A stretch of 64,000 nucleotides of DNA from assembly GCF_020911925.1 (NCBI RefSeq), contig NZ_CP087134.1, positions 248,001 through 312,000 on the forward strand, read 5' to 3'. The position numbers were made by a program, and so were the translations under genes. Positions 27,866-30,378 of the stretch are shown in pieces (the first letter of the stretch is position 1; every line of letters begins with the position of its first letter). The notes below the pieces were generated by a model. The model was not told the DNA's origin. It saw nothing but the letters and a program-made list of their open reading frames with translations, and ran no database searches. The DNA comes from Flavobacterium cupriresistens. GTDB taxonomy: Bacteria; Bacteroidota; Bacteroidia; Flavobacteriales; Flavobacteriaceae.

Positions 27866-28537
27866 TTAAAAATAAGCCTGTATTTTTTTTATCTCCAAAG
27901 GATCTGCCGTTTCTGTATTATTTGTAATCGCAGAAGTATGAAAAAATGTTGGTTCCAGTTTCTCCAGTAACAACTGAATATTCGAGGATCGCAAACCTCC
28001 ACCCGGCATAATCACAATTCGATCCCCTGCCAATTTCTGAATTTTCTCTAAAACTGCAATCCCTTCCAAAACATTTGTTCCTTGTCCGGAAGTCAGAATG
28101 GCGTTAAAACCACAATCAATGACGTCTTCAAGAGCTTGCTCTACATCAGCCACCACATCAAAAGCCCGGTGAAACGTACAGAAATAGGGAGCCGCCAAAG
28201 CAACCAATTCTTCATTTACGCTTTTATTTACGCTTCCATCTTCGTTTAGAATTCCAAAAACAAAACCATCCACTCCCAGTTTTTTGAATTGTTTGATGTC
28301 TTGTTTCATTACGATAATTTCTTCATCGGAATAAACAAAGTCCCCTCCACGGGGTCTGATAATCACATGCATTTTGATTGACAATTTCTCGCGGACTTTG
28401 GCTCCTAAAATATAATTTGGCGTTGTCCCTCCGAGTTGCATGTTCTCGCATAATTCGATTCGGTCTGCTCCGTTTTCCTGAGCAATCAAAGCCGATTCGT
28501 AATTGAAACAGGCTATTTCGAGTTGTTTTTTTTTCAT
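27866..28537 (-). CDS. cutC: CutC-family protein
   Basis: About 223 residues, a TIM-barrel protein of the CutC family, named for copper tolerance though the biochemical role is uncertain. Visible pattern: LEIACFNYESALIAQENGADRIELCENMQLGGTTPNY, HVIIRPRGGDFVYSDEE, VDGFVFGILNEDGSV, TFHRAFDV and IMPGGGLRSSNI. The ATG at 28537 (MKKKQLEIA) or 28546 is the likely start. The open frame runs on to 28600, but that extension is a translation of the palindromic repeat beginning at 28560 and should not be annotated as protein. Confidence 0.92.
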   Translation of the reverse strand: MKKKQLEIACFNYESALIAQENGADRIELCENMQLGGTTPNYILGAKVREKLSIKMHVIIRPRGGDFVYSDEEIIVMKQDIKQFKKLGVDGFVFGILNEDGSVNKSVNEELVALAAPYFCTFHRAFDVVADVEQALEDVIDCGFNAILTSGQGTNVLEGIAVLEKIQKLAGDRIVIMPGGGLRSSNIQLLLEKLEPTFFHTSAITNNTETADPLEIKKIQAYF

Positions 28538-28559
28538 TGTATTCATTTGTTGTAAAGCA

Positions 28560-28666
28560 GGGCTTCGACTTCGCTCAGCCTGACAGTCGGCTTCGCTCAC
28601 CTTGACAGTTGTTATTTAAAAAACATCTCTTAAATCCTTAGTGTCACCCTGAGCGAAGTCGAAGGG
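28560..28666. repeat. Palindromic repeat unit 1, GIY-YIG cassette
   Basis: CTTCGACTTCGCTCAG (left, 28563-28578) pairs exactly with CTGAGCGAAGTCGAAG (right, about 28649-28664). An extra partial arm GGCTTCGCTCACCTTGACAG sits inside. The interior TTGTTATTTAAAAAACATCT recurs in unit 2. Confidence 0.92.
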
Positions 28667-28681
28667 CTATTCATCTTAAAA

Positions 28682-28766
28682 GGGCTTCGACTTCGCTCAG
28701 CCTGACAGTTGTTATTTAAAAAACATCTCTTAATCCTAGTGTCACCCTGAGCGAAGTCGAAGGGCT
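28682..28766. repeat. Palindromic repeat unit 2, GIY-YIG cassette
   Basis: This is a near-exact direct repeat of unit 1 without the extra partial arm. Arms lie at 28682-28707 and 28740-28766 with the same AT-rich interior. The right arm ends 8 bases before the end of the GIY-YIG gene. Confidence 0.92.
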
Positions 28767-28774
28767 GTTCACTA

Positions 28775-29098
28775 CTAAACATCTTTTTTAATAAAATTTT
28801 TATGACTCGTTAAATTTAAACATTCTGAAAGTTTTTTTAAGTCCTCCCATTTATCATTTATTATAGCTTCTTTCTTTTTTCTGCTCCATCCTTTCACTTG
28901 TTTTTCAAAAGAGATTGCTTGATTGACATCATTAAAATCAGTACAGAACACTAATTTCAATGGTCTTTTATTATACGTATAACTTTCTTTATGCAAACCG
29001 GACTTATGTTCCTTGAGTCTTCGATCCATATTATTTGTTATTCCGGTATAGTAACTATCATCAGAACATTTTAAGATATAAACATAATAAAATTTCAT
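28775..29098 (-). CDS. Small stand-alone GIY-YIG nuclease-domain protein
   Basis: 107 residues, a single GIY-YIG domain of the UvrC-N/YhbQ type. YYVYILKC and YYTGITNN form the GIY-YIG pair, RRLKEHKSG supplies the catalytic Arg, and SFEKQVKGWSRKKKEAII the metal-binding Glu. All core residues are present, so it may cut DNA. The C-terminal tail is Lys/Asn-rich. It is enclosed by one palindrome family: its stop lies 8 bases from unit 2 and its start 28 bases from unit 3. No other gene shares this interval, which suggests a repeat-borne cassette rather than a host operon. Confidence 0.9.
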   Translation of the reverse strand: MKFYYVYILKCSDDSYYTGITNNMDRRLKEHKSGLHKESYTYNKRPLKLVFCTDFNDVNQAISFEKQVKGWSRKKKEAIINDKWEDLKKLSECLNLTSHKNFIKKDV

Positions 29099-29126
29099 TT
29101 TAAATAGAAGTTTTGGAGTAAAAAAA

Positions 29127-29254
29127 GGGGCTTCGACTTCGCTCAGCCTGACAGTTGTTATTTTAAAAACATTTCTTAAACCTAGTGTGTCACCCTGAGC
29201 GAAGCCGAAGGGCTATTCATCTTAAAGTGCTTCGACTTCGCTCAGCTTGACAGT
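29127..29254. repeat. Palindromic repeat unit 3 plus half unit
   Basis: A full unit (left arm 29127-29154, right arm 29188-29214) has the same TTGTTATTTTAAAAACAT interior as units 1 and 2. An extra left-type arm GCTTCGACTTCGCTCAG follows at 29229-29254. All are in the same orientation as the units on the other side of the GIY-YIG gene. Confidence 0.92.
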
Positions 29255-29313
29255 TCGTTCAAAGCTGTAAATGTACGAAAAATAATACAGTAAATTATCA
29301 CCCCTCGTTCTTC

Positions 29314-29347
29314 CAAAAAAAAACCTGCTCAGAAACTGAACAGGTTT
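29314..29347 (-). terminator. Intrinsic terminator of fabH
   Basis: On the minus strand AAACCTG-TTCAG pairs with CTGAG-CAGGTTT (one mismatch) around AAA/TTT, then a T-run. It starts 24 bases after the stop. Confidence 0.85.
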
Positions 29348-29370
29348 AGTATATTATTTAAACAAAAAAA

Positions 29371-30378
29371 TTACCATTTAATAATAGCACTTCCCCAAGT
29401 GAATCCACTTCCGAAAGCTGCTAAAACAACTGTATCTCCTGTTTTTATTTTTCCTTGTTCCCATGCTTCGGTTAAAGCAATCGGAATCGATGCTGCGGTT
29501 GTATTACCATATTTCTGAATATTGTTATACACCTGATCGTCTGACAATTTGAATTTGTTTTGAATAAACTGTGAAATCCTCAAATTAGCCTGATGCGGAA
29601 TCAACATATTAATATCCGAAACCTGTAGACCATTTGCTTCTAAACCTTCGTTGATTACTTCAGCAAAACGAACTACTGCGTTTTTAAATACAAACTGTCC
29701 ATTCATATAAGGATAATAACTCTCATCATTTGGGTCATTATCTGCTATAATATCGGTTACCCAACGTGCTCCCATTCCCGGTGCTTGTAGCGCTAACTCT
29801 TCGGCGTGTTGTCCTTCTGAGTGTAGGTGTGTTGATAATATTCCTTTTGTCAAATCTTCTTCACGACTTAAAACAGCCGCTCCTGCTCCATCTCCAAAAA
29901 TAACTGAAACACCACGTCCGCGGCTTGTCATATCCAATCCTGTTGAATGTACTTCAGAACCAATTACTAAAATGTTTTTATACATTCCCGTTTTGATGTA
30001 TTGGTCTGCAACCGAGATTCCGTAGATAAAACCCGAGCATTGATTTCTAACGTCTAAAGCTCCAACCGTTCTTAATCCCAAATCACGTTGTACCAAAACT
30101 CCTGGTCCTGGAAAATAGTAATCCGGACTTAAGGTAGCAAAAACCACAAAATCAATATCTTCTTTGGCTATGCCGGAACGTTCTATAGCAATTTTAGCTG
30201 CTTTTACCCCCATAGAGGTTGTGGTATCCTCTCCACGAATAATATGTCGGCGTTCTTGAATTCCAGTTCTTTCCTGAATCCATTCGTCATTGGTATCAAT
30301 AATTTTAGACAAATCATCGTTAGTCACAACATTAGAAGGAACATAATATCCTAAGCCCGCTATTTTTGAATGATACAT
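29371..30378 (-). CDS. fabH: 3-oxoacyl-ACP synthase III (FabH-type)
   Basis: 335 residues. It condenses a primer acyl-CoA with malonyl-ACP to start fatty-acid synthesis. The thiolase-fold triad is visible: C114 in VRNQCSGFIYG, H262 in LIPHQANLRIS and N292 in YGNTTAASIPI. GDGAGAAVL and the closing GSGFTWGSAIIKW are typical. In Bacteroidota the primers often give iso-branched acids. It is monocistronic, with a -7 box upstream and its own terminator. No plsX/rpmF neighbour is present, so this may be one of several FabH paralogues in the genome. Confidence 0.92.
   Translation of the reverse strand: MYHSKIAGLGYYVPSNVVTNDDLSKIIDTNDEWIQERTGIQERRHIIRGEDTTTSMGVKAAKIAIERSGIAKEDIDFVVFATLSPDYYFPGPGVLVQRDLGLRTVGALDVRNQCSGFIYGISVADQYIKTGMYKNILVIGSEVHSTGLDMTSRGRGVSVIFGDGAGAAVLSREEDLTKGILSTHLHSEGQHAEELALQAPGMGARWVTDIIADNDPNDESYYPYMNGQFVFKNAVVRFAEVINEGLEANGLQVSDINMLIPHQANLRISQFIQNKFKLSDDQVYNNIQKYGNTTAASIPIALTEAWEQGKIKTGDTVVLAAFGSGFTWGSAIIKW

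Follow-up and report, generated by a model that had tools for sequence, protein, structure and literature searches.

In REP/RAYT systems, repeats bearing a GTAG tag are paired with an enzyme of the HUH Y1 transposase type. CGTC-tagged REPs, whose tag is often TGTC, have been described in five phyla and include Neisseria dRS3 and Rickettsia RPE-4/6; the sections of that survey consulted here associate no transposase with these repeats and leave the responsible enzyme open (Di Nocera et al. 2013, PMC3733652). Here, we analyzed a window of 64,000 nucleotides from Flavobacterium cupriresistens (NZ_CP087134.1, positions 248,001 to 312,000), in which a small GIY-YIG nuclease gene between cutC and fabH is bracketed by REPs carrying a TGACA tag. 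GIY-YIG enzymes include homing nucleases, and their catalytic domain is common to the GIY-YIG homing endonucleases.

A small GIY-YIG nuclease gene framed by inverted REPs

The features of the locus are collected in Table 1. PF01541 (E 3.6e-18) is the sole Pfam domain of the encoded protein, the HUH/Y1 domain PF01797 of RAYT enzymes being absent, and Y7, Y17, G19, R27, H31 and E65 are invariant across 32 aligned sequences including the window protein, which places it in the GIY-YIG superfamily by domain and conserved residues and bears out the 107-residue reading frame with an intact GIY-YIG core described in the first-pass annotation. An AlphaFold2 model (mean pLDDT 84.9, pTM 0.71) has UPF0213 proteins as its top fold matches (1zg2, 1ywl; E 6e-6 for one UPF0213 protein), followed by a weaker match to Slx1 (E 0.01), a structure-specific nuclease of branched DNA; such a predicted fold would suit hairpin cutting. 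The same genome holds five GIY-YIG matches including the window gene, namely one other small frame, a 609 aa frame read as UvrC and open frames of 472 and 454 aa.

Table 1. Repeat arms, doublets and nuclease gene of the window (window coordinates)
Feature	Position	Strand	Remarks
Single REP arm upstream of cutC	28561..28585	+	
Degenerate REP arm (TCGGCTTCGCTCACCTTGACA)	28587..28607	+	
Complete tag-outward REP doublet (REPIN-like)	28642..28707	.	ssDNA fold -21.6 kcal/mol, z -6.9
REP arm bracketing gene on left	28740..28764	-	tag TGTCA outward, stem CCCT/AGGG
GIY-YIG nuclease gene, 107 aa	28775..29098	-	ORF list, Pfam, conserved residues, predicted fold
REP arm bracketing gene on right	29129..29153	+	stem GGCT/AGCC, tag TGACA outward
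Second tag-outward REP doublet	29188..29252	.	ssDNA fold -19.8 kcal/mol, z -7.0

A scan allowing up to two mismatches found seven near-identical 16-nt arms in the window, each with at most one mismatch and all inside 28563-29245, against 0.01 expected from shuffled windows, and a single repeat family does enclose the gene as first noted. The proposed search of the whole genome (5.74 Mb, one contig) returned 161 arms carrying no more than one mismatch; the loop core TCGACTNCGCTC occurs 188 times, and the reversed control gave 0 in both cases. The claim that nothing else lies in the interval held for ORFs of at least 80 aa between the window arms, except for the cutC ORF, whose listed start enters the first arm. 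At 28538-28600 this listed ORF extends upstream across REP sequence; because the alignments of most relatives to it begin only at about residue 20, the true cutC start is probably internal to it, leaving the REP outside the gene. Rfam gave nothing above gathering score in 28400-29400. REPs of the own genome adjoin short repeats in direct or tandem arrangement (ACTGAGACTGAA, TTGGAATTTCAGAA, ACCGCAAGG..CGCAAAG) at L013, L016 and L024.

Each arm of this type (A1) is a hairpin composed of a covarying 4-bp stem of free sequence, the fixed loop and a 3' TGACA tag. The four positions before the loop pair with the four after it in 69-100% of 49 distinct own-genome A1 arms and in 79-97% of 187 distinct A1 arms from other genomes; at the stem positions that vary, shuffles give 28-49%. 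The two own-genome pairs nearest the loop hardly vary and are hence little informative, and pairing at position 5 is no better than in shuffles. Positions +5 to +9 read TGACA (82-100% each), and not the GTAG of RAYT-associated repeats. As single-stranded DNA, the doublets of the window form strong folds (z about -7); single A1 arms (25-27 nt) fold no better than shuffles.

Compact doublets have their tags facing outward in the stretches of the own genome that were read; of 13 distinct doublets, 10 have loops separated by 23-28 nt, whereas the opposite pairing (8 distinct cases) leaves 43-130 nt between them. The first-pass annotation had paired the arms around an AT-rich interior; the conserved pairing in these stretches is the other one, with tags outward. 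Lying between a minus and a plus arm, the window gene occupies the spacer position of such a doublet and is flanked by two inverted REPs, as RAYT genes are. Across 115 gene placements, tags point outward in 48, inward in 6 and in the same direction (mixed) in 30, with arms on one side only in 20 and none in 11; the excess of outward over inward has a binomial p of 3e-9 when loci are treated as independent.

Repeat association and clade specificity

Relatives of the window nuclease were present in 120 of the 150 same-genus genomes searched and were split by score into a high-scoring clade A (78 loci read, including the window's own) and a low-scoring clade B (32 loci read, out of a larger number listed). 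Using as a flank test the longest common word of at least 40% GC between the 300 bp left and the 340 bp right of each match, with a threshold of 13 nt, we found such a word at 68 of 78 clade A and 25 of 32 clade B loci among the matches listed, versus 8 of 460 control ORFs, which were taken with 300 bp on each side from 29 arbitrary 20-kb same-genus regions, repeat-picked and syntenic stretches being left out. No common flank word was seen at eight UvrC-like or long GIY-YIG genes. The word was absent from 10 of 78 clade A loci, 7 of 32 clade B loci and 32 of 80 loci of a named-genome sample (the best 80 of at least 559). The enrichment of paralogues near repeats beyond chance, put forward earlier as a check, is therefore strong, and the nuclease-repeat association is general and not confined to the window locus.

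Five repeat types (A1, A1p, A2, A3, B) can be told apart by their loops, using patterns derived from these flanks and then applied equally to all loci. On the protein tree, which was built from 107 rows and 104 columns and has many weak forks, the types require 5 changes (12 untyped rows left out of the count), with a minimum of 4, compared to a mean of 52 in shuffles, none of 200 being as low. In the 23 genomes with paralogues of at least two clades, 211 of 221 nearby arms were cognate (within 450 bp: A1 74/76, A1p 37/39, A2 48/48, A3 19/25, B 33/33), and 8 of the 56 genes lacked arms of all types over this distance. The window's own genome follows the same rule, as its two small GIY-YIG genes each lie between REPs of a different family, the second one between B-type doublets (by eye on both sides, by pattern on one), of which type the genome holds 118 matches (control 0). 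Taken together, the repeat type is specific to the nuclease clade, with mostly one type per clade. Within clade B, a subclade (L119, L123, L124, L133, L138) has flanks without B-type REPs; those of L123 have TTGTCATTCCCGCGAAGGCGGGAA in common in inverted orientation, a sequence which we take to resemble Neisseria dRS3.

The Y1_Tnp genes of the own genome were considered as drivers of the A1 repeat, and none of the four matches has an A1 arm within 1.5 kb. One of them (L186, at 2385200) contains one internal stop and is flanked by a palindrome-like repeat of its own, ACCCCGAGGCAGAGCCTCGAGG, which differs from the REPs linked to GIY-YIG genes. Ten genomes that have A1 repeats and no A1-clade nuclease were searched with PF01541; the 22 small GIY-YIG loci read, from which eight additional small or partial matches were left out, have no A1 arms beside them.

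Another small GIY-YIG group of 82-84 aa occurs in the same genus near tRNA genes (Ala-GGC, Val-TAC, Pro-TGG, Met-CAT). ARAGORN placed at least one tRNA in 10 of 10 loci (L300, L301, L304, L306, L312, L313, L314, L320, L327, L329), the common flank word resembles the tRNA 3' part in at least six (L300, L301, L304, L306, L312, L314), and genome G017 carries three of these genes in tandem. They look like tRNA-targeting cassettes that are not REP-linked.

The named-genome sample (14 of its 80 loci from Flavobacterium; the best 80 of at least 559 confirmed) had the 13-nt flank word at 48 of 80 loci versus 4 of 68 other ORFs at the same loci. A generic hairpin finder (tag CGTC/TGTC, stem of at least 6, G-U allowed), for which hairpins were hardly enriched at the 80 named loci (0.42 per kb near the gene versus 0.33 elsewhere and 0.34 in shuffles), misses shorter stems and was afterwards replaced by one keyed to TGTCA/CGTCA with a stem of at least 5 bp. 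At 60 of the 66 named non-Flavobacterium loci (six had short flanks), the keyed finder gave 3.85 hairpins per kb near the gene, that is within 350-400 bp, versus 0.30 elsewhere, with a TGTCA-type hairpin on at least one side in 49 and on both sides in 33. Clade B behaved similarly (3.08 versus 0.42 per kb; 27 of 32 loci have one), and clade A gave 0.54 versus 0.23 per kb, with hairpins at 19 of 76 loci and none at 57, because A1 stems are only 4 bp long. TGTCA-tagged hairpins were also present in metagenome bins, whose taxon labels may be wrong, assigned to Alphaproteobacteria (L274), Deltaproteobacteria (L288), Calditrichota (L291), Leptospiraceae (L271), Clostridia (L284), Anaerocolumna (L298) and Berkelbacteria (L292); in two further bins, Parcubacteria (L293) and Reyranella (L294, short left flank), the keyed finder detected no TGTCA/CGTCA hairpin. 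The REP-nuclease link seems to extend beyond Bacteroidota.

Gene and repeats at the cutC-fabH site and across genomes

The gene, together with at least one A1 arm, is found between cutC and fabH in 11 genomes; the other clade A loci, 67 of 78, are at different positions, among them one in G066 with a protein close to that of the window. For comparison, 18 further genomes were picked, mostly for many repeats. In 16 of these the site is bare, with cutC beside fabH, 75-238 bp between them and neither gene nor A1 arm, so that the empty sites suggested as a check do exist; B-type doublets sit in 2 of the 16. Fifteen of the bare-site genomes have no clade A match and one (G060) has a broken copy elsewhere, and all hold A1 loops at other places (7 to 164). 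The remaining two genomes, G112 (clade A gene elsewhere) and G130, showed no cutC within the stretch that was read. When all 29 genomes are placed on a fabH tree, those with and without the gene interleave, with 7 changes, at least 3 of which are forced by well-supported branches. Given this interleaving and the joint presence or absence, gene and repeats come or go together at this site, which is most simply read as repeated loss.

The first-pass suggestion of a mobile cassette is weakened by these results, since 11 genomes share one site and identical gene copies, seen at three loci (L054, L065, L085), are in tandem; the 67 clade A loci at other places nonetheless allow movement over longer times. 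Comparison of two close genomes shows orthologous sites that differ by entire doublets or by internal parts of them. Their flanks often differ too, so no insertion was caught in the act, and the comparison turned up no REP inserted at a site that was identical in other respects. Similarly, a 2.4-kb probe revealed no clean empty site for an own-genome doublet; by the coordinates of the hits, about 1.2 kb is missing from relatives at that place, which is more than the doublet. At two pairs of orthologous intergenic sites in close genomes (L363 versus L372, L367 versus L377), one member has a REP doublet within larger arms, CCACAGATT...AATCTGTGG, and the other has a different sequence, in the L363/L372 case with its own CCACGAATTC arms.

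At the genome level, in tables compiled by hand and counting in the arms beside the gene, at least 10 A1 loops occur in 30 of 32 genomes with an A1-clade nuclease (broken ones included) versus 32 of 118 without (Fisher p 4e-12), and at least 5 A2 loops in 22 of 26 genomes with an A2 nuclease versus 19 of 124 without (p 1.5e-11). In the cutC-fabH comparison, where genomes lacking the gene had been picked mostly for many repeats, the median number of A1 loops is 59 with and 55 without it (p 0.39). A strict genome-level dependence of repeats on the gene was not found, the 32 of 118 genomes without an A1-clade nuclease having orphan repeats; many genomes retain repeats without the gene. In the portion of the work consulted, REPINs of E. 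coli are likewise found in genomes without RAYT (PMC8049555).

A candidate REP nuclease and its described counterparts

Overall, these results suggest, with a probability of roughly three in four, that the gene encodes a REP-associated GIY-YIG nuclease acting on its cognate REPs much as in REP/RAYT, with a non-homologous enzyme. From the association and its specificity we infer binding, cleavage and mobilization of REPs: the nuclease would recognize its cognate hairpin, through loop and tag, in extruded or single-stranded DNA and would cut beside it, and repair or reintegration of the cut ends may then copy, rearrange or move the repeat unit. Framed by two REPs, the gene would form a REP-gene-REP element of about 420 bp, of which the scattered doublets would be non-autonomous derivatives. 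A wider proposal, in which small GIY-YIG nucleases are dedicated mobilizers of CGTC/TGTC REPs across phyla, each paralogue serving its own hairpin class and the doublets being miniatures of the element, strikes us as somewhat better than an even bet.

Alternatively, the nuclease might be a selfish homing-type gene using REPs as safe landing sites, with the REPs spread by another enzyme or by host recombination. Its place in the spacer of a doublet, the homing nucleases known among GIY-YIG enzymes, the small group next to tRNA genes (in several cases with the 3' part of the tRNA repeated) and the persistence of REPs in genomes without the gene would agree with this; however, a given clade goes mostly with a single repeat type, also where paralogues share its genome, 11 genomes keep the gene at one site and the four Y1_Tnp matches of the own genome lack A1 arms in their 1.5-kb flanks, and we regard this explanation as unlikely. 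The interleaving of genomes with and without the gene on the fabH tree, with its forced changes, and the several paralogues per genome with different repeats argue against a domesticated nuclease for which REP hairpins are binding or processing sites in a host function (DNA maintenance or RNA processing), their spread being passive; the site common to 11 genomes and the predicted resemblance to the structure-specific Slx1 speak for it, and it appears very improbable. REPs are abundant in the genome and could merely pile up around a dispensable gene, an idea that deserves hardly any credence, being already disfavored by the rarity of flank words at control genes, the near-diagonal type-by-clade matrix and the absence of A1 loops from bare cutC-fabH sites in genomes that hold them elsewhere.

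If the wider proposal is true, these nucleases would be a second, non-HUH answer to the problem of REP amplification, and two unrelated nuclease folds would have converged on one way of life. The nuclease may be the enzyme so far missing for an entire class of bacterial repeats. With a candidate of about 100 residues, clade-specific hairpins and several paralogue/repeat pairs per genome, the enzyme question becomes directly testable, and the cognate pairs inside one genome offer a natural specificity code to dissect.

Among described proteins, the UPF0213 or small stand-alone GIY-YIG proteins (1zg2, 1ywl) are the closest solved structures by sequence and fold, but were deposited as hypothetical proteins. 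GIY-YIG homing endonucleases share the catalytic domain, whereas here no host intron or single target gene was seen and cognate repeats are many. Among the titles and abstract openings listed in the open-access literature, which covers few subscription papers and no preprints, none linked GIY-YIG genes to REPs.

With REP/RAYT and REPINs, as far as the consulted parts of the reports go, the locus has in common a small enzyme gene between two REPs in inverted orientation, many doublets of hairpin plus tag across the genome and REPs in enzyme-less genomes (PMC2817692, PMC8049555). Membership in that system fails on the enzyme domain, GIY-YIG as opposed to HUH Y1, and on the tag, TGTC/TGACA as opposed to GTAG. 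The Bacteroidota parallel to REP/RAYT proposed at the outset is thus supported by repeat enrichment, clade specificity and bare sites, but is seemingly not restricted to Bacteroidota.

The CGTC superfamily, in the portion of its description considered here (PMC3733652), shares the CGTC tag (TGTC in many), the predominance of tags-outward (HH) dimers and TGTCAT...ATC bodies, which here adjoin clade B relatives; it differs in having no transposase gene as partner, where we find a GIY-YIG gene, and in stems of 8-9 bp with loops of 4-5 nt, compared with 4 bp and 12 nt in the window type. Among the more distant loci, L292 has an 8-bp stem with a 4-nt loop and at L271 the stems are 8 bp, with G-U pairs allowed, and the loops 9 nt. 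The unpaired tag at one end (TGACA in A1, TGTCA in the hairpins of the named loci) and the mainly tags-outward dimers in the own-genome doublets read agree with the CGTC/TGTC superfamily; the stem and loop lengths of the window type do not. Since no transposase is associated with CGTC REPs in the consulted sections of that survey (Di Nocera et al. 2013, PMC3733652), the small GIY-YIG nucleases are strong candidates for the enzyme behind them.
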